Source: a virus
Virus record (IMG/VR): IMGVR_UViG_3300036768_000881
Location: 1-37,045 of that record
Strand: one strand, 5' to 3'
DNA: 37,045 bases
In this document: positions 1 to 36,885 of the stretch, in pieces
Layout: the number at the start of each line of letters is the position of its first letter
Numbering within the stretch: the first letter of the stretch is position 1
The notes under the pieces: generated by a model
What the model saw: only the letters and a program-made list of their open reading frames with translations
What the model was told of the DNA's origin: nothing
Databases searched by the model: none
Program-made: the position numbers and the translations under genes

Positions 1-1652
1 GGCATTTGTTGCGAGTGAGAGGAAAGCGAAAACCCCCCGTTTCGATCTCTCGAAGAGGGGGGTTCGCTGCGCAGAGTGAGATTCTGCGGTCCCGACGGGG
101 ATTGAAATATAGACACATCATCAATCCCCGCGAGACCGTGGACTTTTGGGGGCGGGTAATAATAATAGATCGTTCCGTATAGCATTTTGTCTTCGCGGCG
201 GACTTCTACGCGATCTATAAGGAGGCGCAGGAGCAGGCGCTGTGTGTCCAGGTCTGCGGAGGCAAAGACGCGGGCATAGTTAACGGCGAGGTAGGCAAGT
301 ACGTCTGGGGGTATTTCGGGGATGGGTTCGGTAGCGGAAGCGTCCAGTTCAGCGAGCTGATTTTCGAGTTCGGTTTCATCCATTTCCAATTCTTTGAGAC
401 GTTTTGCAGGAGCCTTAGCGTCTCTGCCGAGGTCTTCGAGTAATGCCATCAGGTTGGATATTTTTTTTCGGACAGTGGCAAGCCGCGTTTTGAGCTCGAG
501 GCGTTTTTCTGTTTGCTCGATAAGCTGCCTGGATGCATCCATTTTGAGTTGCTCATAAACAGCCAGCAAGTTATCAGGTTTCAGGATGATGCTGGTAATC
601 GTTTCTATCACAGCTTTTTCAATTGTTTCACGCGGGATGCGGCTCTTGGTGCAGTCGCGTTTGCGATAAGCGCGGGTGCAGAAGTAGCTGTCGTAGGTCT
701 TGCCGCTTTTCTGCGGGGAGGAGCGACCGAAGAGGGGCGAGCCGCAATGGGCACAGCGACCGATGCCGCTGAGGAGGAAGCGGGATTTAGCGCGGCGGGG
801 ATGATCCATTGAATCGGCGCTGACATGTTTGCGGCGGGCATAGCGATTTTGGACGACCTGCACCTGTTCCCACAGTTCGGCGCTGACCATCGGTTCGCAA
901 TAATTCTCGATGATCAAATCAGCATATTTGAGCGTGCCTTTATAGATAGGATTGGCGAAAAAGGTCGAATAGGAATTGATTCCGCTGTAAAGTTTTGTTT
1001 CTTTGTGAATTGCGCCCAGAGAGATGCGGCGGGCGCGCATCTCAAAAGCCCGCTTCACGCGGGGAATATAGTCAGGGTCTGGCACCCATTTATGGGCGAT
1101 ATGGGGCGTGCCGTCTCGCCGCAGACCGATGGTGACGGGTTCGCGCTTGAATCCGCGCGGGGCACTGCCAGGCACGCAGCCATATCGTTCCACTAAATTT
1201 TGCAGTCCGCGTTTTACATCGAGGGAGAGGTCGATCAGGAATTGCTCGTCTTTGAAATCAATGGCGGCTTCAAAGAGGCGTCCCATTGGGCCTTCGGGGA
1301 CTTCATCATTGAGAGAGTAGAAGATATAGCCCAGCGTGCGGATTTCGGCGCGAAAAAATTGAGCATTATCCACTGAGCGGGCAAAGCGGTTGTATTTCCA
1401 AACGACCACGCCGCGTTCGCTGCACTCATGGCGGAAGGCATACATCATGGCTTGCAGTTCGTCACGTTTGACGACGCTGGAGCCGCGCTTGGCTTCGTCT
1501 TTGTAGATGCGGGTGATGATCAGGTTGTGTTCCGCCGCCCATTTCCGTAGAACGGCTTCCTGTTGCTCAATGGAGAGTTCTTGGTCTTCGTGACCGCTAT
1601 CGCGCAAGTAGCCGAAGATGCGATCGCCAGGCGAGAAGGGGATTCGAGTCAT
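1..1652 (-). CDS. int: Large serine recombinase (phage integrase), 3' end outside window
   Basis: Starts at ATG 1652 and stays open to the window edge (550 codons seen), so the stop is not visible. The N-terminal resolvase domain has the catalytic motif YLRDS (Ser19, Arg17), followed by the RFARS helix region. Residues around 180-290 fit the Recombinase domain (PRGFKRE). A zinc ribbon follows (CAHC, then YFCTR and RDC), then a long coiled coil and the C-terminal block LLIDRVEVR. This is the large serine integrase family, which cuts attP and attB through a Ser-DNA link. It overlaps the upstream gene by ATGA (1649-1652) and faces attL, the normal place for an integrase. Oddity: the frame passes straight through the attL core (86-99) into host DNA, so residues after about 522 are host-encoded in the lysogen. 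Family call is certain; the true C-terminus is not. Confidence 0.95.
   Translation of the reverse strand, partial: MTRIPFSPGDRIFGYLRDSGHEDQELSIEQQEAVLRKWAAEHNLIITRIYKDEAKRGSSVVKRDELQAMMYAFRHECSERGVVVWKYNRFARSVDNAQFFRAEIRTLGYIFYSLNDEVPEGPMGRLFEAAIDFKDEQFLIDLSLDVKRGLQNLVERYGCVPGSAPRGFKREPVTIGLRRDGTPHIAHKWVPDPDYIPRVKRAFEMRARRISLGAIHKETKLYSGINSYSTFFANPIYKGTLKYADLIIENYCEPMVSAELWEQVQVVQNRYARRKHVSADSMDHPRRAKSRFLLSGIGRCAHCGSPLFGRSSPQKSGKTYDSYFCTRAYRKRDCTKSRIPRETIEKAVIETITSIILKPDNLLAVYEQLKMDASRQLIEQTEKRLELKTRLATVRKKISNLMALLEDLGRDAKAPAKRLKELEMDETELENQLAELDASATEPIPEIPPDVLAYLAVNYARVFASADLDTQRLLLRLLIDRVEVRREDKMLYGTIYYYYPPPKVHGLAGIDDVSIFQSPSGPQNLTLRSEPPSSRDRNGGFSLSSHSQQM
31..64 (-). terminator. Rho-independent terminator of the host tRNA-Asp unit, displaced by the prophage
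   Basis: Inverted repeat AACCCCCC (31-38) with GGGGGGTT (57-64), plus an inner stem TTCGA/TCGAA and a 4-nt loop. On the minus strand it is followed by TTTTCGCTTT. It lies just outside attL in host DNA. Before insertion it would have stood about 20 bp downstream of tRNA-Asp. In the lysogen it is downstream of the integrase gene, inside the integrase reading frame. Confidence 0.75.
86..99. other. attL: attL core, left prophage end
   Basis: GCGGTCCCGACGGG is identical to 36812-36825 at the right end, where it forms the acceptor 3' strand and part of the T stem of tRNA-Asp. Similarity stops sharply on both sides: t versus g before it, ggattg versus attcga after it. At the left the tRNA is cut off, so the intact gene is at the right. 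The core is coding sequence for the integrase on the minus strand. Confidence 0.85.
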
Positions 1653-3697: not shown

Positions 3698-3877
3698 ATG
3701 AAATATACATATCATTTCGATTTACAAAACAACCAATGGAATTGCTTCGAGGTTGTGGATGGGTATGAGATTTACATTTGCTCGAAGCCCACTGCGGAGC
3801 AGGCGCGGCTGTGGTGTGAACAGCAAACATTGGCGGCGATCCTGAATGTTGGGGCTGTGCGAGAGGATGGTGAATGA
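3698..3877 (+). CDS. Small hypothetical protein upstream of the tyrosine recombinase
   Basis: 59 residues from ATG 3698, with AGAAAGG 7 nt upstream. Sequence is acidic, with two Cys (WNCFEV, ICSKP, and LWCEQQ further on). Its stop overlaps the recombinase start as ATGA (3874-3877), so the two are translationally coupled. Small genes in this position are often excisionases or directionality factors, but no HTH or basic DNA-binding stretch is evident, so that role is only a possibility. Function unknown. Confidence 0.65.
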   Translation: MKYTYHFDLQNNQWNCFEVVDGYEIYICSKPTAEQARLWCEQQTLAAILNVGAVREDGE

Positions 3878-4845
3878 TGAAAACTCAAACAATTGCCCAT
3901 TTCCAGATTGCTCAAGATTGGCAAATGCAATTCCGCGCATGGCTGGAGCAGGATTATCGCAAAATCAGCCCTATCCATCGGACGCCGAGCGAGAAATCGG
4001 TCAAGGCGGCTTGCCAGCATGTGCGGGTATTTGCGATGTGGTGGGAAGCCAAATACGGCGACATCTTCGAGCCGCACAAAATTACAAATTTCGATCTACA
4101 CGCCTGGCGTCATCACTCCCTGGAGGAGGCCCGCGTCGCTCCCGACACATGGAATAGCCGCATGTGGGCGCTCGGCATCTTTTGCCAGTGGGTTGAATCC
4201 ATGCTGGGCGCGTCCTATGCCAACCTGATGGATGGGATCGAGCCGAAAAAGGCAGGTGTCCGCCCTGCGCGTTATCGCAGTCTCACCGACCAGGAATTTG
4301 GCTACCTGGTACATCGTCTTGAACGCCGCGTGCGCGAAGCAGTGACAGCGTTTGAGCATTGGACTGCGGTCCGCAACCAGGCAGTTGTGGCGGTGATGTT
4401 GTTGGCTGGCCTGCGCGTCGAAGAGGCGTCCATGCTGGATATAACTGACATCACGATCGGCGAGCGCAGTGGGTCGGTCAGGGTCCGCAACGGAAAGGGA
4501 GCAAAGGAGCGCCGCGTTCCACTCAACCTGACCGTTAGGCGCGCCCTGGATGAATGGGTGAACGTCCGCGGGAATGCTCCTACTAATGGATTATTTGTGG
4601 GCAAATCCAGCGAGCGTTTGACCACGCGCCATATTGAGCGCGTCGTCTCTGACCTGGGAGCGGAGTGTCGTATCCCTGGGTTGAGTCCGCACTGGTTGCG
4701 CTATACATTTGCCAAGCGGCTCGAACAGCGCGGGACGCCCATCGAGCAAATCCGCGACCTGCTCGGCCATGAGTCGGTCGAGACTACGCGCCGCTATCTC
4801 CGCGCAGGTTGGGCAGAACTGGAAGCGGCCATCGAAGGAATTTAA
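3874..4845 (+). CDS. Tyrosine recombinase (XerC/D-like phage integrase family)
   Basis: 323 residues. N-terminal core-binding domain about 15-115; catalytic domain about 135-315 with the full set of active-site residues: Arg181 (LAGLRVEEA), Lys208 (GKGAKERR), His273 and Arg276 (HWLRYTF), His299 (LLGHES) and nucleophile Tyr308 (TRRYLRA). All are intact, so it should be active. It is not next to either prophage end, and a serine integrase already occupies attL. A Xer-like role resolving genome dimers, alone or with the FtsK-like translocase at 10276, fits better than integration. Alternatively it is the integrase of an older element, in line with the tRNA-like sequence at 3528-3569. Start could be the next Met (3877). 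Confidence 0.93.
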   Translation: MMKTQTIAHFQIAQDWQMQFRAWLEQDYRKISPIHRTPSEKSVKAACQHVRVFAMWWEAKYGDIFEPHKITNFDLHAWRHHSLEEARVAPDTWNSRMWALGIFCQWVESMLGASYANLMDGIEPKKAGVRPARYRSLTDQEFGYLVHRLERRVREAVTAFEHWTAVRNQAVVAVMLLAGLRVEEASMLDITDITIGERSGSVRVRNGKGAKERRVPLNLTVRRALDEWVNVRGNAPTNGLFVGKSSERLTTRHIERVVSDLGAECRIPGLSPHWLRYTFAKRLEQRGTPIEQIRDLLGHESVETTRRYLRAGWAELEAAIEGI

Positions 4846-5210: not shown

Positions 5211-6449
5211 ATGGCAATCAATTTTGACGATTTTGTAGAGCAAGTGCGTGATGCAAACCCCATCGAGGATGTGATCGAGGAGAGCGGGATGAGGTTACGC
5301 GGGCATGGCCGTCTGCGGACGGGGATGAATCATGACAGCCTAAAAGTCCGAACGGACATGGGGCGCGCCTGGTGGTACTCGCAGAATTGGAATGGGGATG
5401 TGTTTGGGTGGGTGATGCGAGAGAAGGGGGTGGAATTCATCGAGGCACTGGAAATTTTGGCGAAGCGGGCGCATATCGAGATGCCGAAATTCCAAAATGT
5501 GAACGAGAGTGAGGTTCAGCGGAGGCGCGCTACTGCTGATGCTTTTTCGGTGGCGGCGAATGTGTTCCACCGCTGGCTGGTGGGGGACGTGGAGCGAGGC
5601 ATCAAGGCGGACCATGATGCGCTGGCGTATGTGCGCGGGCGAGGATGGACGGATGAGACCATCCAGGCGGAATTGGTTGGGTTTTCGGGGCGAAGGCAGG
5701 ACTGGCAGGTGAAGGATATGCTGGGGGAGTTCCAGTTGTATGGGATTAATCCGCAATCATTGGCGGGGGTGGCCGTGTTGGGGTTCGAGGGGGATGTGGA
5801 CGCCTGGGCAAGGACACAGGGTGTGCGTGAGCATGAGGATTTTGATGAGGCATGGATCGAATGGGGGCGGATCTTCGGCTTGATGGATAAGCCTGGCGTG
5901 ATTTATGCCCATCAGTTTCGGGGAGGGGTGCGGTATTTGTCGCGCAGGAATCTGCCAGGGTTCGATAAGCGTAAGGACGCCCAAACAGGGAAGGAACGGG
6001 AGGATAAATCGTTCAATCCATTCAAACTGATGGCGGGCCCGAAACAGCCGTATTTCAATCATGTGCACCGCGTGGACAGGCCGATTGTAGGGGTGGAGGG
6101 GCAGGGGGATGCGATTACGTGGGGGCAATGGGGACAGGGCGCGGTGGCATTTTGCGGGCTATTGGGAAACCTGGATTCGATGGGCGATGAAAATCTGGCG
6201 CAGGTACGACAGTTGGTGGCGTATTTGAAGAAACATCCTGCGGTGTATTTGAACCTGGATGAGGATGAGGCTGGCCAGAAGGCTCTCAAAACAGCGGTCA
6301 GGCTTTTAGGGCCGAAGACGCAAATTGTACGAATTCCACGCCTGGTATCCAGAAATGAGGCGAATGAGATTGATGGAATTATTCCGTCTGAGGATGACGA
6401 TCTTGCGATGAATGAGATAAATAATGAGGATAGCAATGTCAAAAAATAA
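5211..6449 (+). CDS. DnaG-like primase with TOPRIM domain
   Basis: 412 residues. The first 95 residues line up with the DnaG zinc-binding domain (NGDVFGWVMREKGVEFIEALEILAKRAHI, compare GDVFGFVM...ALRLLAERAGI) but contain no cysteine, so the CHC2 zinc site is lost. The middle (AYVRGRGWTDETIQAELVGFS) matches the primase N-terminal catalytic subdomain. A TOPRIM fold follows: VEGQGDAI (Glu near 295) and LNLDEDEAG (Asp near 348 and 350), the metal-binding residues. It makes RNA primers for phage DNA synthesis and probably works with the helicase downstream, whose start overlaps its end by 14 bp. The missing zinc site implies a different way of template recognition. Confidence 0.85.
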   Translation: MAINFDDFVEQVRDANPIEDVIEESGMRLRGHGRLRTGMNHDSLKVRTDMGRAWWYSQNWNGDVFGWVMREKGVEFIEALEILAKRAHIEMPKFQNVNESEVQRRRATADAFSVAANVFHRWLVGDVERGIKADHDALAYVRGRGWTDETIQAELVGFSGRRQDWQVKDMLGEFQLYGINPQSLAGVAVLGFEGDVDAWARTQGVREHEDFDEAWIEWGRIFGLMDKPGVIYAHQFRGGVRYLSRRNLPGFDKRKDAQTGKEREDKSFNPFKLMAGPKQPYFNHVHRVDRPIVGVEGQGDAITWGQWGQGAVAFCGLLGNLDSMGDENLAQVRQLVAYLKKHPAVYLNLDEDEAGQKALKTAVRLLGPKTQIVRIPRLVSRNEANEIDGIIPSEDDDLAMNEINNEDSNVKK

Positions 6450-8295
6450 ACCAACCATCAAGGACGCAAATGCACAATTGCAAGATTGGGTCGCCAGGGG
6501 TATGACGGCGAGCGAACAGGCGCGCCAGGCGGAGGGATGGCTGAAGGCGGCACGCCCATATATTTTGCTTTGGGCTGAGGAGATTGGGGAAATTCAGAAT
6601 TTGAGCGAGAAGAACGAGGCACTGAATGATTTTTTCAAGAATGGTGTGGCAGAATTGAGTGAGGAGGATCGAGCGGGATACAAAGATGCGCTGCTAGCGG
6701 CATTGAAAATCAGGAGTACGCAATGGGCAGACCGCCTGAAGGCATTGAACGGGAAAAAGAAAAAGAATGAGAAGGATGAGGATGATAGTGAGCCGATTTA
6801 TACGACAGGCGGGTGGCTGTTCGATCATTTTATCGGCCTGGAGTATGACGCGGAATTGGATCAGACGTTCATGGCGGTTCGTTTTCCCGATGGGCATGTA
6901 GAGGACAGGGTGGAACGTTTGATGATTGGCAATAGAAAATATTTGCCGCTGCCAGCAAATAATATCATTCGTAAGCGCGTGATTTTGCTTCCTTCGGCAA
7001 TGACAGATTTAAAACCAGAAGATGAATTGCTATTTGCAATACGGGCGCATAATGCGCGATATTTCGATTTTGGTTCGGATGAAACGTTCGAGCAATTGTG
7101 CATGATTTATCCATTTTTTACGTTTTTGGCCAGGCAATTCCGCACGGTGCCATATTTACGGGCGCTGGGGGATTATGGCACTGGAAAAAGCCGTTTGTTG
7201 AAAACGGTTGGGCCCATCTGTTTCCAGCCGATTATGACGAATGCGGGCTCGAGCGCGTCGTCGTTGTTCCGTATTCTCGATCTGTTTACGGGTTCAACAT
7301 TGGTGCTAGATGAGGCGGATTTCAATAACAGCGATGAGGCTTCGATGATCGCAAAAATCCTGAATGGGGGAAACGAGAAGGGGCAGGCCATTTTGAGGTC
7401 CGAGAAGGACGCGCTGGGGAATTTTGATGCGGCGGCTTTTGATGTCTTCGGGCCGAAGATCATCGGGATGCGGAAGGATTTCCAGGATCAGGCGACGGCG
7501 AGCCGCTGTTTGACAAAGGAGATGCTTCCGATCCAGCCACATCCGCGCATCCCACTCGACCTGCCGCCCATAGAGGCCTACGAGCGAGAATGCCTGGGAA
7601 TACGCAATGCGCTATTTACCTACATGATGCACAACATGCAAAGAGATTGCCAGGTGGACCTGAACTCGGTGGATCGGGGTGTGGATCCGCGCACGGCGCA
7701 GGTGGCGGTGAGCCTGTTGACGGTAATGAAGAGCGAGCGCGGGCGCGAGTTGGTGCAGAATTATCTGCGGGCAGTGACCGAGGAGAGGAAAGCCGAGCGG
7801 TATGGAACGTTTACGGCGCGGGTTCTGGAGGGGCTGGTGATGGCATGGGCGTGGGGACCTGTGTCGGATCGACCTGAGGATGCCGACCGAATTTATTTGA
7901 AAGACATTGCGCTGGCCACGAATATGATAGTGGATGAGCAAAACCGCCGCATGGGTGAGACTGCGGATGAGCCTGACGAGAAGGATGAGAAGAAGAAGAC
8001 GAAGAGCCGCAAGATTACGGATATTTTCAAGAAATATCTGAATATCAAAACATTCCGTGCGACGGATGGTTTGAACGAATATAAAGGAACATCTTATGTG
8101 AATATGTCAATCGAAATAGAACGAGTGAAGGGCCTGTGTGAACGCTGGGGGGTGCAATGGCGGGAGCGCGGGAGCCTGGCTGGCAATATTTCCGAGGATG
8201 AACAATGGATGAAACGGCCTGTGGTGAAGATGATCAATTTTAATGAAACGCCTGAAGAGTTCAAAAAGGCCCGTAAAGAGTGGTATGGGCAGTAA
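6436..8295 (+). CDS. Phage replicative helicase / P-loop ATPase
   Basis: 619 residues from ATG 6436 (GAGGA 5 nt upstream; an ATG at 6424 is less well placed). Residues 1-120 are helical and charged, ending in a Lys/Asp/Glu linker. Walker A is GDYGTGKS (245-252) and Walker B LVLDEAD (289-295); sensor-like polar residues and an Arg (ATASRCL) follow. A basic linker (EKKKTKSRK) leads to a C-terminal winged-helix-like region (IEIERVKGLCERWGV). Known relatives are phage DNA-replication ATPases encoded beside primases. It overlaps the primase gene, so both are co-expressed. Helicase activity is inferred from motifs and context; a loader or initiator is possible. Confidence 0.75.
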   Translation: MSKNKPTIKDANAQLQDWVARGMTASEQARQAEGWLKAARPYILLWAEEIGEIQNLSEKNEALNDFFKNGVAELSEEDRAGYKDALLAALKIRSTQWADRLKALNGKKKKNEKDEDDSEPIYTTGGWLFDHFIGLEYDAELDQTFMAVRFPDGHVEDRVERLMIGNRKYLPLPANNIIRKRVILLPSAMTDLKPEDELLFAIRAHNARYFDFGSDETFEQLCMIYPFFTFLARQFRTVPYLRALGDYGTGKSRLLKTVGPICFQPIMTNAGSSASSLFRILDLFTGSTLVLDEADFNNSDEASMIAKILNGGNEKGQAILRSEKDALGNFDAAAFDVFGPKIIGMRKDFQDQATASRCLTKEMLPIQPHPRIPLDLPPIEAYERECLGIRNALFTYMMHNMQRDCQVDLNSVDRGVDPRTAQVAVSLLTVMKSERGRELVQNYLRAVTEERKAERYGTFTARVLEGLVMAWAWGPVSDRPEDADRIYLKDIALATNMIVDEQNRRMGETADEPDEKDEKKKTKSRKITDIFKKYLNIKTFRATDGLNEYKGTSYVNMSIEIERVKGLCERWGVQWRERGSLAGNISEDEQWMKRPVVKMINFNETPEEFKKARKEWYGQ

Positions 8296-8875: not shown

Positions 8876-9283
8876 ATGAAGCGCGAGGTAATGATTGTTC
8901 TTGGCCTGGTGTTGGTGGCCGCGGCGGTATTGTTTTGGGATCAGATTATGTCCGCTTTTGCAGGGATGACGCCGCTCGAGGCGATGCAGACGATTGTGCA
9001 ATATATCCTGCATGTGACGGTGATTACGATCTTCGGTTTTTTGATTTTTGGCCTGCCAGAGATTGTGAAGCCATGGATCGAGATGTTAAAGCGTGCGCCG
9101 AAGCGATGGCGATCGGGACCGAATGCTCAGTGGCAGAAGGCGCCGCGGATGCCGAAACTGACCGCCGAACAGCGAACGCTATTGCTATTACAGCAATTGC
9201 AAAATGGGCGAACGCCAAGGCAGACAACCCCGCCCAGCAATATGTATGAGAAAGATGAGCAGCCGCTGGATTTGAAATTTTAG
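8876..9283 (+). CDS. Two-pass membrane protein
   Basis: 135 residues, ATG 8876 two bases after the upstream stop, with GGAGG inside the upstream gene 8 nt before. Two hydrophobic stretches: VMIVLGLVLVAAAVLFW (about 5-21) and ILHVTVITIFGFLIFGLPEIV (about 44-64). The C-terminal 70 residues are basic, then rich in Gln and Pro, probably cytoplasmic. Sits directly before a lipoprotein and a DNA translocase, so it may help anchor that complex at the membrane; this is inference from position. No family recognised. Confidence 0.65.
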   Translation: MKREVMIVLGLVLVAAAVLFWDQIMSAFAGMTPLEAMQTIVQYILHVTVITIFGFLIFGLPEIVKPWIEMLKRAPKRWRSGPNAQWQKAPRMPKLTAEQRTLLLLQQLQNGRTPRQTTPPSNMYEKDEQPLDLKF

Positions 9284-9292
9284 GAGGTCTCA

Positions 9293-10279
9293 ATGAAAAA
9301 AATGATCATTATCCTGCTTTCAGGTATGTTTGCGGTTTTGGCTGGGTGTATTTCTGCTACTACGCCAACTCCGCAACCGGTCAACCCTGGGGAAGTGGCT
9401 TTGACGATGATGTCGCAAAAAATAGATGCCGAGGCAACTCAAATGGCGGTCAATGTGCAGTTCACGGCGACCGCGCAGATTGTCGGTGCGACAGCCACGG
9501 CGCAGGCGCATATTGATGCGCAGGCTACAGCGGAACAGGCACGCAAAGACGCACAAGCCACAGTGGAGCAGGCACGCAAAGACGCACAAGCCACAGCGGA
9601 GCAGGCACGCAAAGACGCACAAGCCACCGAGCAGCAACGACGTGAAGATATTGCGGCGACACAGATGGTGATGCATGATTTTTGGACAGCGACCGCCCAG
9701 CAACAGGCAATCTACAACAGTATGACGGCGCAGGTGCTGCCTACCCATATGATATGGACGCAGGAGGCGGTGCAGCAGCAGCAGATCATTGCCACGAATA
9801 AGGTAGAACTATCGAATTTGGAGGTCGAGCGTCAGCGTAAGAGCAACACGCTGGATGCTTTATGGAAATATGCGGTAGCGACTGCCATGATGATAGCGGC
9901 TGTGATTATGGTCCTGCGTTATTCGCGGGTGCGCGAGATAAAAAATGATGAGACTGGCGTGATCGAGGGGCTTTTGGTGGACGCCAAACATTTGATCAGG
10001 CCGCAATTGATGCCCGGGCCAGCACTTGATTTGAGCGGTGATACTGTGACGGCTCCGCAAGTAGTAGATAAGGAAACTCAAAATGAGGTGACGCGGCGAG
10101 CACAGGCTATTGAGGCGTTGCGGGCTATGCCTACCGAGCGGCCTACCGCAAATGCAGCGTTGATGACGAACAGCGTTTTTGCGGAATCAAAGAAGCCTGT
10201 CATCCAAGTGCTTGAGGCTGGGCAGGTGCAGCGCAAGGTGTTAGACGAACTTGCTGACCAGGTGGTCGAGGAGGAATGA
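9293..10279 (+). CDS. Lipoprotein with hendecad coiled coil and a transmembrane segment
   Basis: 328 residues, RBS AGGAGG 7 nt upstream. Signal peptide with lipobox LAGC (lipidated Cys19), then a Thr/Pro linker. Residues about 50-125 are an Ala/Gln/Glu-rich helix with three nearly identical 11-residue units EQARKDAQAT(A/V/E) (from about residue 80), a hendecad coiled coil. A second membrane segment (AVATAMMIAAVIMVL, about 192-206) leads to a C-terminal domain of about 115 residues that should be cytoplasmic. So the chain would be lipid-anchored outside, make a stalk, and cross the membrane. The stop overlaps the translocase start (ATGA), so the C-terminal part may tether that ATPase. Lipoproteins of this build are unusual in phages. 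Confidence 0.8.
   Translation: MKKMIIILLSGMFAVLAGCISATTPTPQPVNPGEVALTMMSQKIDAEATQMAVNVQFTATAQIVGATATAQAHIDAQATAEQARKDAQATVEQARKDAQATAEQARKDAQATEQQRREDIAATQMVMHDFWTATAQQQAIYNSMTAQVLPTHMIWTQEAVQQQQIIATNKVELSNLEVERQRKSNTLDALWKYAVATAMMIAAVIMVLRYSRVREIKNDETGVIEGLLVDAKHLIRPQLMPGPALDLSGDTVTAPQVVDKETQNEVTRRAQAIEALRAMPTERPTANAALMTNSVFAESKKPVIQVLEAGQVQRKVLDELADQVVEEE
9530..9628 (+). repeat. Three tandem 33-bp repeats within the lipoprotein gene
   Basis: Units at 9530-9562, 9563-9595 and 9596-9628, nearly identical at DNA level (share CAGGCACGCAAAGACGCACA). Each encodes 11 residues in frame. High identity means recent expansion by slippage or recombination, and copy number could vary. Confidence 0.85.
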
Positions 10280-11661
10280 TGCTCCCAGATGTAAATGAAT
10301 ATTTAAAAGCGCAGGATATTGCCGAGGTCATCCAACGAGTGATGATGGAGGAAATGCGGCTGGAACCGCCTTCGCAATGGTGGATGATTCAGGATGGGCA
10401 GTTCAAGTGGTTGATCGGTGTGATGGATGTGCAGAACCTGCACGGCTCGATTGCGAAGTACACGACCGAGGTGGTGCGCCATCAACTTAGCACGGCCATC
10501 GGCGGGCTGCCTGTAGCGCTCAGTAGCTCGACGGGGCTGCGGTATGGCATACTGCTTTCGGGCAGGCCGAAATTGCCAAAAGCGGTGAAGTTCCCAGGTA
10601 TTCCGAGTGAGCGTGACACGATCCGTTTTGGTGTTGGCCTGCGCGGAGAGGTAAGCCTGCACGCGAAGAAGATTGTGAACATGCTCGTGGGCGGCGGGCA
10701 AGATAGCGGCAAGTCCACGTTCCTGCGGCTGGCGGCGCATACGGCGCGGATGCATGGCGCAACGTTGTATCTGGCTGACCCTATGGCGCATACTTTCAAC
10801 CCCGATGTATGGAACCGCCTGGCGGCGTCGGAGGTGGCAGGATCACGCTCGGACTTGTTGCGGCTGTTGGAGAAGGTGCAGGCTGAGGTGGAAGCACGAA
10901 GCGCATTATTCCGTCGTGCGGCGCAGGGTGGTATCCCGCCCGAGGATATTGATGCATACAACCAGGTCGCCGATCCATTGCCGAGGATTTGGCTGATCGG
11001 CGATGAGATGAACACGTATCTATCGGATCGAGTGGTGCAGGAGCGGATCGCTGATCTGGCGCGGGTGGGACGCAAGTGGGGGGTGCATCTCATTCTGGCA
11101 GGTCATAACTGGCGAAGCGAGGATATTCCGCGCGGGCTTTCGGCGATGTTCCCGACGAGGTTGTGCCTGCGCGTGGCGGACGATACGAGCGGGCGCGTGA
11201 CGCTGGACGATCACCGCTGGGGACGGCAGGCGATGCAGTTCAGGTATCCTGGGCGGGCTGTGTTACGCGCAGGGACGTATCAGACGATACAGTTGTATCA
11301 GTTGACGCAAGAGCAGGAGATGGAGTGGTTGGCTGCCAGTATCACAGATGCATTATCTCCGTTGTCTGATGCGGAGATCGAGATTGTGGAGCGCGCTATA
11401 CGCGAGGCGGGCGGGAAGATGACCATTGGACTGCTGGAGGGGTGGGGGATGGGTCACAGAGAGGCGCGGCGAATGGTCGAGACATATGAGGCGCGCGGCT
11501 GGCTGGAACAGGATGCGACACAGGGGAACGCACGGGTGATTACGTCGAAATTGACCGATTTGCTGCCAAACCGCCAAACCCGCCAAACCCTGCCAAAGCC
11601 TGCCAAACCTGCCAAACCAGTTCAGAATTTGTGGCCGCCAGAAATGCTGACAAATTCTTAA
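10276..11661 (+). CDS. FtsK/SpoIIIE-HerA-type DNA translocase
   Basis: 461 residues. Walker A GGGQDSGKST (139-148), Walker B RIWLIGDE (237-244), then HLILAGHNW and RLCLRVAD, the order seen in FtsK/TraB-type motors. Residues about 375-440 look like a winged helix (TIGLLEGWGMGHREARRMVETYEARGWL), comparable to the FtsK gamma domain that reads sequence polarity signals. No transmembrane domain, so it is a soluble motor that may be membrane-linked via the lipoprotein or the protein at 8876. The C-terminus (RQTRQTLPKPAKPAKP) is low-complexity and its DNA carries iterons. It probably pumps or positions phage DNA; coupling to the tyrosine recombinase or to partition is inference. Second Met (10279) may be the start. 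Confidence 0.85.
   Translation: MMLPDVNEYLKAQDIAEVIQRVMMEEMRLEPPSQWWMIQDGQFKWLIGVMDVQNLHGSIAKYTTEVVRHQLSTAIGGLPVALSSSTGLRYGILLSGRPKLPKAVKFPGIPSERDTIRFGVGLRGEVSLHAKKIVNMLVGGGQDSGKSTFLRLAAHTARMHGATLYLADPMAHTFNPDVWNRLAASEVAGSRSDLLRLLEKVQAEVEARSALFRRAAQGGIPPEDIDAYNQVADPLPRIWLIGDEMNTYLSDRVVQERIADLARVGRKWGVHLILAGHNWRSEDIPRGLSAMFPTRLCLRVADDTSGRVTLDDHRWGRQAMQFRYPGRAVLRAGTYQTIQLYQLTQEQEMEWLAASITDALSPLSDAEIEIVERAIREAGGKMTIGLLEGWGMGHREARRMVETYEARGWLEQDATQGNARVITSKLTDLLPNRQTRQTLPKPAKPAKPVQNLWPPEMLTNS
11565..11616 (+). repeat. GCCAAA iterons, candidate centromere (parC)
   Basis: Six copies of GCCAAA start at 11565, 11573, 11582, 11592, 11602 and 11611, spaced 8-10 bp, about one helical turn. They lie 80-131 bp upstream of the actin-like gene, the position of parC in ParMRC systems, though they also encode the end of the translocase. 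They may simply reflect a Lys-Pro-Ala-rich tail. Confidence 0.5.
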
Positions 11662-11695
11662 CCGTCAATAATCATCTATCAAAAGGAGTTACGAA

Positions 11696-12679
11696 ATGAA
11701 CGACATGATCTACATCGGTGAGGACCTTGGAATGGGGGCGAACAAGGTTTGGGGACCTGCGGGCGGGTTGCAGGTGGTGAGCCAGGTGGCGACGAGCGCG
11801 GGTGTCCACCTGGAAGGGATGACTGGGTTGAAGGCAAAGCGCAGACCAATGGAAGTGCGCGGCGATTTTGGCGCGTTCTACATCGGGCAGGGAGCGCACG
11901 AGTATGGGCGCCCTGTGGAAAATCTGGACTTTGATCGTTTGACGGGCGCGCCTGAAATGCGAGCGTTGCTATATGGCACGCTGGCGGAATACCAGGCGAT
12001 GCATGGCGCTTTCGCCGCGCCGATCTCGTTGATGGTTGGGTTGCCGTTACAGATGATGGTAGGAGAAAAAGCGAAGGAATTCCAGAGCGGCGTGAAGTCG
12101 TGGCTGAAGGGTGTTCACGAGTTCGAGGTGGACGGCAAGGCGCACAGATTGGAAGTTGTACAGGTGCGATTGACGAGCCAGCCCGTGGGCGCGCTGTTCG
12201 ATTATGTACTGGATGAGGCGGGCCAAATTCAGGCGGAGCGAGCGGATGCGCTCTTGGATGAGGTGGGGGTGATCAGCGTGGGCTTCAACACCGTCGAACT
12301 CATGGTGGTGAAGGATCAGGGCGCGGTGGAGCGATTTACGCAGGGTAATACCATTGGTGTGCGCCGTTTGCTTGAATTGATGAATCATCAGGGATTATAT
12401 TCACTCGGCGAATTGGATGAACGCCTGCGCTCAGGACGGATGAAGAGCGAGTTGAAATCCGCGCTGCCGATCTGGGGACGCGAGGTAAACGGCGAGATTG
12501 AGAAACGGTGGGGACAATCGTATCGCCGCTTTGCGAAGGTGATTGTGGTGGGCGGCGGCGCGTTGATTTTGAAGGATGTTTTGACGGCGCAATTTGGGAC
12601 GAAGGCGTTTGTCCCGAATCTGCCCGTGCTTTCCATTGCCCGAGGTCTGTGGAAGTTGTCTATGATGAAGAAAGGATAG
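11696..12679 (+). CDS. parM-like: ParM/Alp-type actin-like ATPase
   Basis: 327 residues, RBS AAAGGAG 6 nt upstream. Phosphate-1 loop DLGMGANK (about 10-17), the ParM-like strand ISLMVGLPLQM (about 107-117), the phosphate-2 region ISVGFNTVEL (about 191-200) and adenosine motif VVGGGA (about 284-289), followed by VPNLPVLSIARGLWK as in ParM/Alp proteins. The normal Asp of phosphate-2 (DxGxxT) is replaced by Ser. The protein should polymerise into filaments that push or position DNA. It lies between iterons and a small basic protein, the ParM-parC-ParR arrangement. Phage actins are known (for example Alp filaments); this one looks like a segregation motor of a plasmid-like state. Confidence 0.8.
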   Translation: MNDMIYIGEDLGMGANKVWGPAGGLQVVSQVATSAGVHLEGMTGLKAKRRPMEVRGDFGAFYIGQGAHEYGRPVENLDFDRLTGAPEMRALLYGTLAEYQAMHGAFAAPISLMVGLPLQMMVGEKAKEFQSGVKSWLKGVHEFEVDGKAHRLEVVQVRLTSQPVGALFDYVLDEAGQIQAERADALLDEVGVISVGFNTVELMVVKDQGAVERFTQGNTIGVRRLLELMNHQGLYSLGELDERLRSGRMKSELKSALPIWGREVNGEIEKRWGQSYRRFAKVIVVGGGALILKDVLTAQFGTKAFVPNLPVLSIARGLWKLSMMKKG

Positions 12680-12681
12680 CG

Positions 12682-12933
12682 ATGGGCAGACCTAAAAATA
12701 AGGTTCCGAGTTTGCGCGTGCGGATCGATGGGTATTTGCAGAGGGGGATCGATCCGCAGGTGGATGCGCTGTTGGCATGGCTGGATAGCCTGCCGCCACG
12801 CAAACGTTTTCCGCTGGTGATACGCCGGTTGATGATGGGAGGGGTGATCGAGACGGTAACTGAAAATGGCGATGTAGAAGCGGCGCGGAAGGCGGCGCAG
12901 GAGATTATCGCGGCGTTTGTGGTGGATGATTGA
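12682..12933 (+). CDS. Small ParR-like DNA-binding protein candidate
   Basis: 83 residues, ATG 2 nt after the actin stop, RBS AAAGGA. The N-terminus is basic (GRPKNKVPSLRVRIDG): a possible beta strand followed by two helices (DPQVDALLAWLDSLP, RKRFPLVIRRLMMGG), the ribbon-helix-helix layout. An acidic helical tail (VEAARKAAQEIIAAF) could contact the filament. ParR proteins are small RHH adaptors encoded just after parM, so position and build agree. There is no sequence match I can confirm. Confidence 0.6.
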   Translation: MGRPKNKVPSLRVRIDGYLQRGIDPQVDALLAWLDSLPPRKRFPLVIRRLMMGGVIETVTENGDVEAARKAAQEIIAAFVVDD

Positions 12934-12990: not shown

Positions 12991-13890
12991 ATGGCGCAAA
13001 AAACGAAAATCGAATGGACAGATGCGACATGGAATCCTGTGGTTGGGTGCAGGAAGGTAAGTGATGGGTGCAAGCATTGCTACGCCAAAGCGCTGCACGA
13101 TAAACGGCATGAGGCGTATCTGGCGGGGAAACGGATGCCTACACAGTATGCCGTGCCATTTGAGCAGGTGCAGTTGATGAGTGAGCGGCTGGATTTGCCG
13201 CTGCGGTGGCGGACGCCGAGGCGGATTTTTGTCAATTCGGTTAGCGATTTGTTCCACGATGCTGTGCCGTTTGAGTTCGTTGACCAGGTGGTTGATGTCG
13301 TGCGGCAAGCGCACTGGCATACATTTCAGGTGTTGACAAAGCGGGCGCGGCGGATGCTGGACTGGTATGCGCATTGGATTGAGGTGGTCAATGGGGGGGA
13401 TTATCGGTTGCCAGCCAATTTGTGGCTGGGGGTGAGCGCGGAGAATCAGCGGGCGGCTGATGAGCGGGTATCGGCGTTGTTGTGTGTGCATGGGGCGCGG
13501 CGGTTCGTAAGTTGCGAGCCGCTGTTGGGTCTGATTAATTTGCGCCATGTGGAGGACGAGAAGCGGGGTCGTACTCTGGACGCGCTGGGCGGGGATGATG
13601 AGTATATGCGCGGGCGGCTGGATTGGGTGATTGTCGGCGGGGAGAGCGGGGCGGGAGCGCGACCGATGCACCCGGACTGGGCGCGGTCGCTGCGTGACCA
13701 GTGCCACGAGACAGGTGTGCCATATTTTTTCAAGCAGTGGGGGGAGTGGGTGCCACTGGATCATTTGCCGTGGGTGACGGACAGGTTGCGGTACCGACCA
13801 ATGATGTTGGATGGGGTGACAATGTGCCGGGTAGGGCGGGCACTGGCGGGGCATGTGCTGGATGGGGAGGAATGGAGGGAGTTGCCGTGA
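12991..13890 (+). CDS. Phage Gp37/Gp68 family protein (DUF5131)
   Basis: 299 residues from ATG 12991 (GGAGG 7 nt upstream; a GTG at 12970 is in frame but has no such site). The N-terminus KIEWTDATWNPVVGCRKVSDGCKHCYA is diagnostic of this family, with a CxxxxxxCxxC cluster that resembles radical-SAM iron-sulfur ligands. Later conserved blocks are FVNSVSDLFHDAVPFE, FQVLTKRARRM, WLGVSAENQ, FVSCEPLLG, VIVGGESGAGARPMHPDW and GVPYFFKQWGEW. All are present, so it should be functional. Members occur in many phages and plasmids; the reaction is not known. Downstream gene overlaps by GTGA. Confidence 0.88.
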   Translation: MAQKTKIEWTDATWNPVVGCRKVSDGCKHCYAKALHDKRHEAYLAGKRMPTQYAVPFEQVQLMSERLDLPLRWRTPRRIFVNSVSDLFHDAVPFEFVDQVVDVVRQAHWHTFQVLTKRARRMLDWYAHWIEVVNGGDYRLPANLWLGVSAENQRAADERVSALLCVHGARRFVSCEPLLGLINLRHVEDEKRGRTLDALGGDDEYMRGRLDWVIVGGESGAGARPMHPDWARSLRDQCHETGVPYFFKQWGEWVPLDHLPWVTDRLRYRPMMLDGVTMCRVGRALAGHVLDGEEWRELP

Positions 13891-36748: not shown

Positions 36749-36811
36749 ATTGGTGGGAAAGATGTTTCGTTGGCGTACGAAACTCCATCTTGAGAATGTG
36801 ACTATATAAAG

Positions 36812-36825
36812 GCGGTCCCGACGGG
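36812..36825. other. attR: attR core, right prophage end
   Basis: GCGGTCCCGACGGG, identical to 86-99. On the minus strand it is the last base before the discriminator-side end, the acceptor 3' strand and part of the T stem of tRNA-Asp. The phage end thus restores the tRNA. Confidence 0.85.
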
Positions 36826-36885
36826 ATTCGAACCCGCGATCTCGGCCTTGACAGGGCCGCATGTTAACCGCTACACCACGGGACC
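36813..36885 (-). tRNA. tRNA-Asp (anticodon GTC)
   Basis: Minus-strand gene, 73 nt. Acceptor GGTCCCG/CGGGACC, D arm with GGTGTAGCGGTTAAC, anticodon stem CGGCC/GGCCG with loop CTGTCAA (anticodon GTC), and T arm GCGGG-TTCGAAT-CCCGT. Discriminator is G, as required for aspartate tRNA. CCA is not fully encoded (CC then T). It is the integration target and stays intact in the lysogen. Confidence 0.95.

Follow-up and report, generated by a model that had tools for sequence, protein, structure and literature searches.

The window, a 37,045-base IMG/VR record of a virus of Anaerolineae bacteria analyzed over its whole length, encodes an FtsK/TraB-type translocase whose gene carries six short direct repeats at its 3′ end. 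This array very probably belongs to the translocase encoded by the same gene, an assignment based on the covariation of the repeat word with the residues predicted to read it and on the distribution of the arrays among related elements. The explanation as a whole, in which the array would be a clt-like address of the translocase and the translocase a membrane-anchored pump for double-stranded DNA, is considered probable. For DNA transfer between cells as the purpose of the pump, suggested by analogy with known systems, we regard the prospects as evenly balanced.

Genetic organization of the window

The window contains, among other genes, those for terminase, prohead protease, and portal, which identify it as a tailed phage; relatives of its actin are found in Anaerolineae genomes and in the virus Rctr41k. 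An earlier interpretation of the letters alone (the sequence-only reading) had suggested a phage-plasmid lifestyle. Instead, the large serine recombinase at the left end and a repeat of the 3′ end of tRNA-Asp make the window look like an integrated temperate phage. Specifically, positions 86 to 106 match the 3′ end (36811 to 36832) of the tRNA-Asp gene located at 36811 to 36885, with a 14-base exact match inside a 22-column alignment that has two single-base gaps, which suggests the two segments as candidate attL and attR sites of the prophage. A serine recombinase resembling that at the left end of the window is encoded just upstream of the translocase module in L017, a MAG element on a bacterial genome contig. 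The features referred to below are as follows.

108 to 1652, minus strand: large serine recombinase at the left end of the window, probably the prophage integrase (Resolvase, 9e-17; Zn_ribbon_recom; Recombinase)
3874 to 4845, plus strand: tyrosine recombinase (PF00589, 1.7e-29), in relatives not coupled to FtsK
8876 to 9280, plus strand: small membrane protein with two predicted spans, opening the module (from the translation)
9293 to 10279, plus strand: lipoprotein with a lipobox, an Ala/Thr/Gln-rich stretch, an internal membrane segment, and a tail of about 110 residues (from the translation)
10276 to 11661, plus strand: FtsK/TraB-type translocase of 461 amino acids (FtsK_SpoIIIE, PF01580, 2e-7)
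11362 to 11559, plus strand: C-terminal segment of the translocase (secondary structure in the model: helices 365 to 378, 384 to 389, and 394 to 406, strands 410 to 413 and 419 to 422)
11455 to 11460, plus strand: codons for H394 and R395 at the start of the predicted recognition helix (from alignment, model, and covariation with the first two bases of the repeat)
11565 to 11618, plus strand: six direct repeats GCCAAACC, the fourth copy being GCCAAAGC, the putative recognition and loading site of the translocase
11696 to 12679, plus strand: ParM-like actin, an optional neighbor (ALP_N, 7e-9; MreB-like_C, 7e-8; PHROG 691 "partition protein," 5e-28)
12682 to 12933, plus strand: small protein of 83 amino acids, ParR-like by position and conserved in relatives (from the alignment)

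The gene run from 10276 to 12933 thus holds the FtsK-type motor, the ParM-like actin, and the small protein that had been read from the letters, as borne out by Pfam, PHROG, and the relatives, and the translations likewise agree with a lipoprotein and a membrane protein preceding the translocase. An ORF similar to the membrane protein gene occupies the same place in several relatives, and a lipoprotein homologue lies directly upstream of FtsK in 28 loci, making it the most constant partner of the FtsK gene. Within the lipoprotein gene of the window, positions 9500 to 9620 contain almost perfect tandem repetitions of a segment that encodes AEQARKDAQAT. Directly 3′ of the module, at 12991 to 13890, lies a DUF5131 gene (phage Gp37/Gp68-like; Pfam, 1.5e-92), and such a gene is also located downstream of the translocase in L037.

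Structure prediction for the translocase

The AlphaFold2 model of the translocase reached a pLDDT of 89, and a Foldseek search with it returned TcpA, the coupling protein of the conjugative plasmid pCW3, as the best match (4.5e-19), followed by the FtsK motor (2e-16). Together with the PF01580 match, these fold similarities place the protein among the FtsK/SpoIIIE-family motors on which transfer systems of the TraB/clt type depend. The C-terminal domain is predicted to form a winged helix with residues 394 to 406 as the recognition helix. Profile comparison of this domain with the γ domain of host FtsK gave no match, and no convincing match was obtained among PDB sequences. As a lone query, the FtsK protein of the window retrieved no viral relative; a search with a translocase alignment, however, identified thirteen viral loci and further loci in Anaerolineae genomes.

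The repeat array and its spacing

The GCCAAA copies start at 11565, 11573, 11582, 11592, 11602, and 11611, all on the plus strand, and form the only repeat cluster in the window. Five pairs of GCCAAA copies separated by 2 to 5 bp were found where 0.06 were expected, a value reached in none of 100 shuffles. Two properties ascribed to these six iterons in the sequence-only reading need revision: the copies themselves are present, but they are spaced by 8, 9, 10, 10, and 9 bp, i.e., by less than one helical turn rather than at helical spacing, and they are located not between genes but within the FtsK reading frame, at its 3′ end, so that all six are translated.

Of the 29 arrays comprising five or more copies in a row, 24 open with spacings of 8, 9, and 10 bp irrespective of the repeat, and the step after these measures 9, 10, or 11 bp. 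In a test blind to the repeat word that compared 216 spacing triples, the 8-9-10 series ranked first, alone or tied, for 26 of 59 members. Given a turn of 10.5 bp, steps of 8, 9, and 10 bp leave the next site approximately 86, 51, and 17 degrees, respectively, behind a complete turn, and the sites therefore wind around the duplex instead of lining up on one face. With six sites facing a six-membered ring, the array may mirror a staggered hexamer.

Since all six copies in the window are translated, the repeats could be a by-product of a low-complexity, P/T/Q/N-rich tail of the translocase. However, in 34 of 36 arrays the copies within the frame fall into two or three different codon phases, 12 arrays extend beyond the stop codon of the translocase, those of L053, L058, and L029 are situated mostly 3′ of it, and what is kept is the spacing of the DNA rather than the protein sequence. 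The shifting codon phases and the crossing of the stop codon indicate that the signal of the array is in the DNA; on these two grounds the protein-tail explanation was rejected, and we give it next to no weight. In L061, which encodes a distant translocase, tandem repeats of the TTTGCTG type lie 3′ of the stop codon, compared with AACC-type words elsewhere.

Covariation of the recognition helix with the repeat word

The first two residues of the recognition helix vary together with the word: E-R is found with GTC, E-W with CTC, Q-R or Q-K with GAC, and, in the window, H-R with GCC. For further pairs the first two bases are purine-A with Q-I or Q-Q, GT with E-K, CG with R-S, and GG with K-N. 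Across 43 members, helix class and repeat class coincided for E-R and GT (16/16), E-W and CT (10/10), and Q-R or Q-K and GA (5/5); these cells are only partly independent, since some units were identified by eye and relatedness among the members is common. When the motors of a pair were at least 60% identical, a shared helix was accompanied by a shared word in all 41 cases and differing helices by differing words in all 67. Of the pairs whose helices differ, L018 and L077 are the most similar: their motors are 90% identical, yet the word differs as well.

An automated count over 41 clusters gave an agreement of 0.60 for base 1 and likewise 0.60 for base 2, compared with 0.39 and 0.34, respectively, for shuffled pairings; the observed value was not attained in any of 20,000 shuffles (p of about 5e-5 for each base). 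These scores are lower bounds, because nine-base units such as GTCCAAACC (L002, L035, L093, and L105) are placed in the wrong register by the site finder. For loci fetched after the rule had been written down, some of them close relatives of earlier members and with units partly read by eye, 13 of 16 agreed with the prediction: ten fitted both bases (L077, L080, L083, L084, L086, L087, L089, L093, L100, and L105) and three the one base predicted (L094, L102, and L103), while two were mixed (L085 and L098) and one disagreed (L090). Pairing of Arg or Lys with G and of Gln with A would be reasonable chemistry for the contacts that we infer. The predicted fold and the covariation of the repeats are thus consistent with a winged helix that reads short repeats, as in TraB/clt systems. 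L048 and L017 share only about a quarter of their motor residues and have winged helices that look far more alike, both combined with GTCAAAC words, so that the reading head may be exchangeable together with its array, as one cassette.

The covariation also bears on the idea that the repeats are iterons for a replication initiator of the phage. Short direct repeats are typical of origins, and a replication cassette with primase and helicase genes (5211 to 8295) is located 2 kb upstream. Across elements of differing gene order, however, the arrays track the FtsK gene and not the replication genes, and their word follows the recognition helix of FtsK, which makes an iteron function very unlikely.

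Distribution of the arrays among relatives

Most translocase loci possess a direct-repeat array at the end of the gene or just past it, each with its own word, and thus show the element-specific repeats near the translocase gene that are characteristic of TraB/clt systems. Arrays were weak or unclear in L026, L029, L037, L051, L055, L090, and L105 and absent at the translocase loci L033, L059, L062, L106, and L107. In the 56 loci with enough downstream sequence, the slot following the translocase is occupied by actin in 24, by ParA in 7, and by neither in 25; clear arrays lacking both neighbors include those of L027, L028, L031, L034, L048, and L052. Conversely, L001 and L003 to L013 encode the actin, most of them together with the small protein, but have no array beside it, and no translocase was found in those of their records that were searched whole. 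In L055, L056, L083, L084, and L086, ParA directly follows the translocase and array, i.e., it takes the slot of the ParM-like actin elsewhere; judged by gene order, the two kinds of partition genes look interchangeable in this position.

The core of lipoprotein, FtsK, and array is present in terminase-bearing viral contigs (the window, L002, L026, L035, and L037) and in the viral contigs L028 and L034, whose terminase matches are weaker. It also occurs in L063 (contig 118 of the Anaerolineae genome G001), a compact element of about 10 kb without capsid genes that encodes the lipoprotein, the translocase with its array, the actin, the small protein, two tyrosine recombinases, a RepA-like helicase, and a CHC2/Toprim primase; L065 (contig 15 of G095) resembles it. 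From these gene contents we conclude that lipoprotein, FtsK, and array would constitute a portable, transfer-like module common to phages and integrated elements.

Actin and the small protein

The ALP_N, MreB-like_C, and PHROG 691 matches identify an actin of the ParM type, as used in type II partition (ParMRC). The protein encoded downstream had been taken for a small ribbon-helix-helix-like protein; its conservation and its length of 83 residues are confirmed, but a ribbon-helix-helix fold is not borne out by the structure model, which is weak (pLDDT of 63), and searches returned neither a family nor a PDB match. Comparison of this model by VIA-align yielded weak, unrelated matches (best Z of 3.5) that constitute no evidence on the fold. 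The C-terminal end of the protein is conserved (I-x-A/N-F-V-V or N-W-E-F) and, by analogy with ParR, could be the actin-binding end.

The order of repeats, actin, and small protein matches that of parC, parM, and parR, the actin is of the partition type, and prophage CGP3 provides a precedent for such a system (PMC4446434). The array might accordingly be the parC site of a type II partition locus, at which the 83-residue protein would couple phage DNA to the actin filament, which was the centromere role envisaged in the sequence-only reading. The small proteins of the window and L002, however, are 86% identical (8 of 9 positions in the putative strand), those of L017 and L018 are 75% identical, and L019 and L020 behave likewise, yet the repeat words differ within each pair. 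Moreover, arrays occur without the actin pair, actin pairs occur without arrays, as in the phages lacking FtsK, and the repeats follow the reading residues of FtsK and not the small protein, unlike centromere repeats belonging to a ParR. A parC function was rejected on the basis of this distribution and the missing covariation with the small protein, and we hold it to be very improbable.

Recombinases and the segregation alternative

Alternatively, the system could act in segregation in a manner similar to FtsK-Xer, the translocase loading at the array as at clustered KOPS and pumping the circular element at the septum to a recombination site, where the inner tyrosine recombinase would resolve dimers. 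Several elements do combine a translocase, Xer-like recombinases, and partition genes, and the frequent presence of actin or ParA next to the motor also fits a role in segregation. On the other hand, a tyrosine recombinase is encoded by 6 of 8 relatives lacking FtsK, whereas the majority of the viral contigs with FtsK yielded none, so that among the 20 viral records compared, several of which are fragments, its distribution is independent of FtsK; dimer resolution with the inner recombinase, as previously proposed, has no specific support, the recombinase being equally present in relatives without FtsK. Furthermore, the host FtsK genes checked are without arrays. Bacterial FtsK (KOPS, XerCD) has the same motor fold and, like the translocase described here, a C-terminal reading head of the winged-helix type (predicted in our case), but its KOPS sites are dispersed over the chromosome, whereas each element here has one array within its own gene. 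We consider the segregation alternative unlikely, though deserving of some weight. Three observations favor transfer over it: the constancy of the lipoprotein and membrane protein, the optional presence of the partition genes, and the lack of coupling between recombinase and translocase.

Comparison with known transfer and partition systems

The closest solved fold of the motor, TcpA of the Clostridium plasmid pCW3, has an identity of only about 17%. TcpA functions together with a T4SS-like apparatus; no such apparatus was recognized among the genes adjoining the module of the window or in L063.

In Streptomyces, the single FtsK-type protein TraB moves double-stranded DNA between cells from the short repeats of clt; TraB of pSVH1 reads 8-bp words via helix α3 of its winged helix, and clt of pWTY27, which comprises 16 bp of the 3′ end of traA plus 159 bp beyond, is bound by TraA (PMC3583192). 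AICEs are small elements in which an integrase, a replication gene, and an FtsK-type translocase occur together, and in a 2011 survey of Actinobacteria such integrated elements were confined to the Actinomycetales (PMC3218068). The elements described here share with these systems (pSVH1, pWTY27, pJV1, pIJ101, and AICEs) an FtsK-family motor with a C-terminal winged helix, predicted in the present case; with pWTY27 a cluster of short direct repeats that lies at the 3′ end of the translocase gene or immediately beyond it; and with the Streptomyces elements in general a word of their own for each element. They differ in belonging to Chloroflexota instead of Actinomycetales, in residing also inside terminase-bearing phages, and in the frequent presence of actin or ParA next to the motor gene. 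In addition, the motor has no membrane segments, but a lipoprotein and a small membrane protein are conserved upstream of it. Spd genes were not recognized among the gene assignments made here. No 8-9-10 array was found in pIJ101, whereas this spacing is conserved in the relatives analyzed here.

AlpAC of the Corynebacterium prophage CGP3 demonstrates that a prophage can use an actin-based system (PMC4446434). Similar to AlpAC/alpS and to plasmid ParMRC, the window has an actin with a small co-encoded protein, here encoded by a phage; in CGP3, however, the adaptor gene comes first and the adaptor binds the upstream repeats, whereas the repeats of the window are not those of the small protein.

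Proposed mechanism and implications

In the mechanism that we favor, the C-terminal winged helix of the translocase would read the 8-bp word GCCAAACC via H394 and R395, and six ordered copies spaced by 8, 9, 10, 10, and 9 bp would load the motor ring, presumably a hexamer, on the DNA of the element itself. The motor has no membrane segments and is probably anchored by the lipoprotein and membrane protein encoded upstream; the ring would then drive double-stranded DNA one way across an envelope or septum, comparable to the transport by TraB that starts from clt in Streptomyces. Actin and the 83-residue protein would make up a partition-like cassette of their own, which is optional and occupies the slot that follows. 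The parts of the module, their distribution, the covariation, and the spacing are computational results; from these we infer physical binding, ring loading, anchoring by the lipoprotein, transfer between cells, and any participation of actin in the same process.

A more far-reaching proposal combines three elements: that the identity of the word's first two bases is dictated by two helix residues (the first residue pairing as E-T, Q-A, H-C, and K/R-G, the second as R/K-G and W-C), that the copy positions (0, 8, 17, 27, ~37, and ~46 bp) template the staggered subunits of the hexamer, and that some temperate phages of filamentous Anaerolineae may additionally pass between cells as naked DNA. It is put forward tentatively, as its combined probability is rather low; the last element is suggested by the presence of the module in terminase-bearing phages.

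No report of such modules in phages of Chloroflexota or Anaerolineae was found in the open-access literature, and for a two-residue specificity code with a conserved spacing rule, as proposed here, no description was found in open-access papers. To our knowledge, only a few pairs of reading helix and DNA word have been characterized for FtsK-type motors; the approximately forty natural pairs assembled here make the specificity of these motors directly testable, and the fixed spacing offers a handle on the loading of a hexameric motor. If the purpose of the pump is transfer, TraB-like DNA transfer would be extended to the Chloroflexota, and phages would be linked to that mode of spread.
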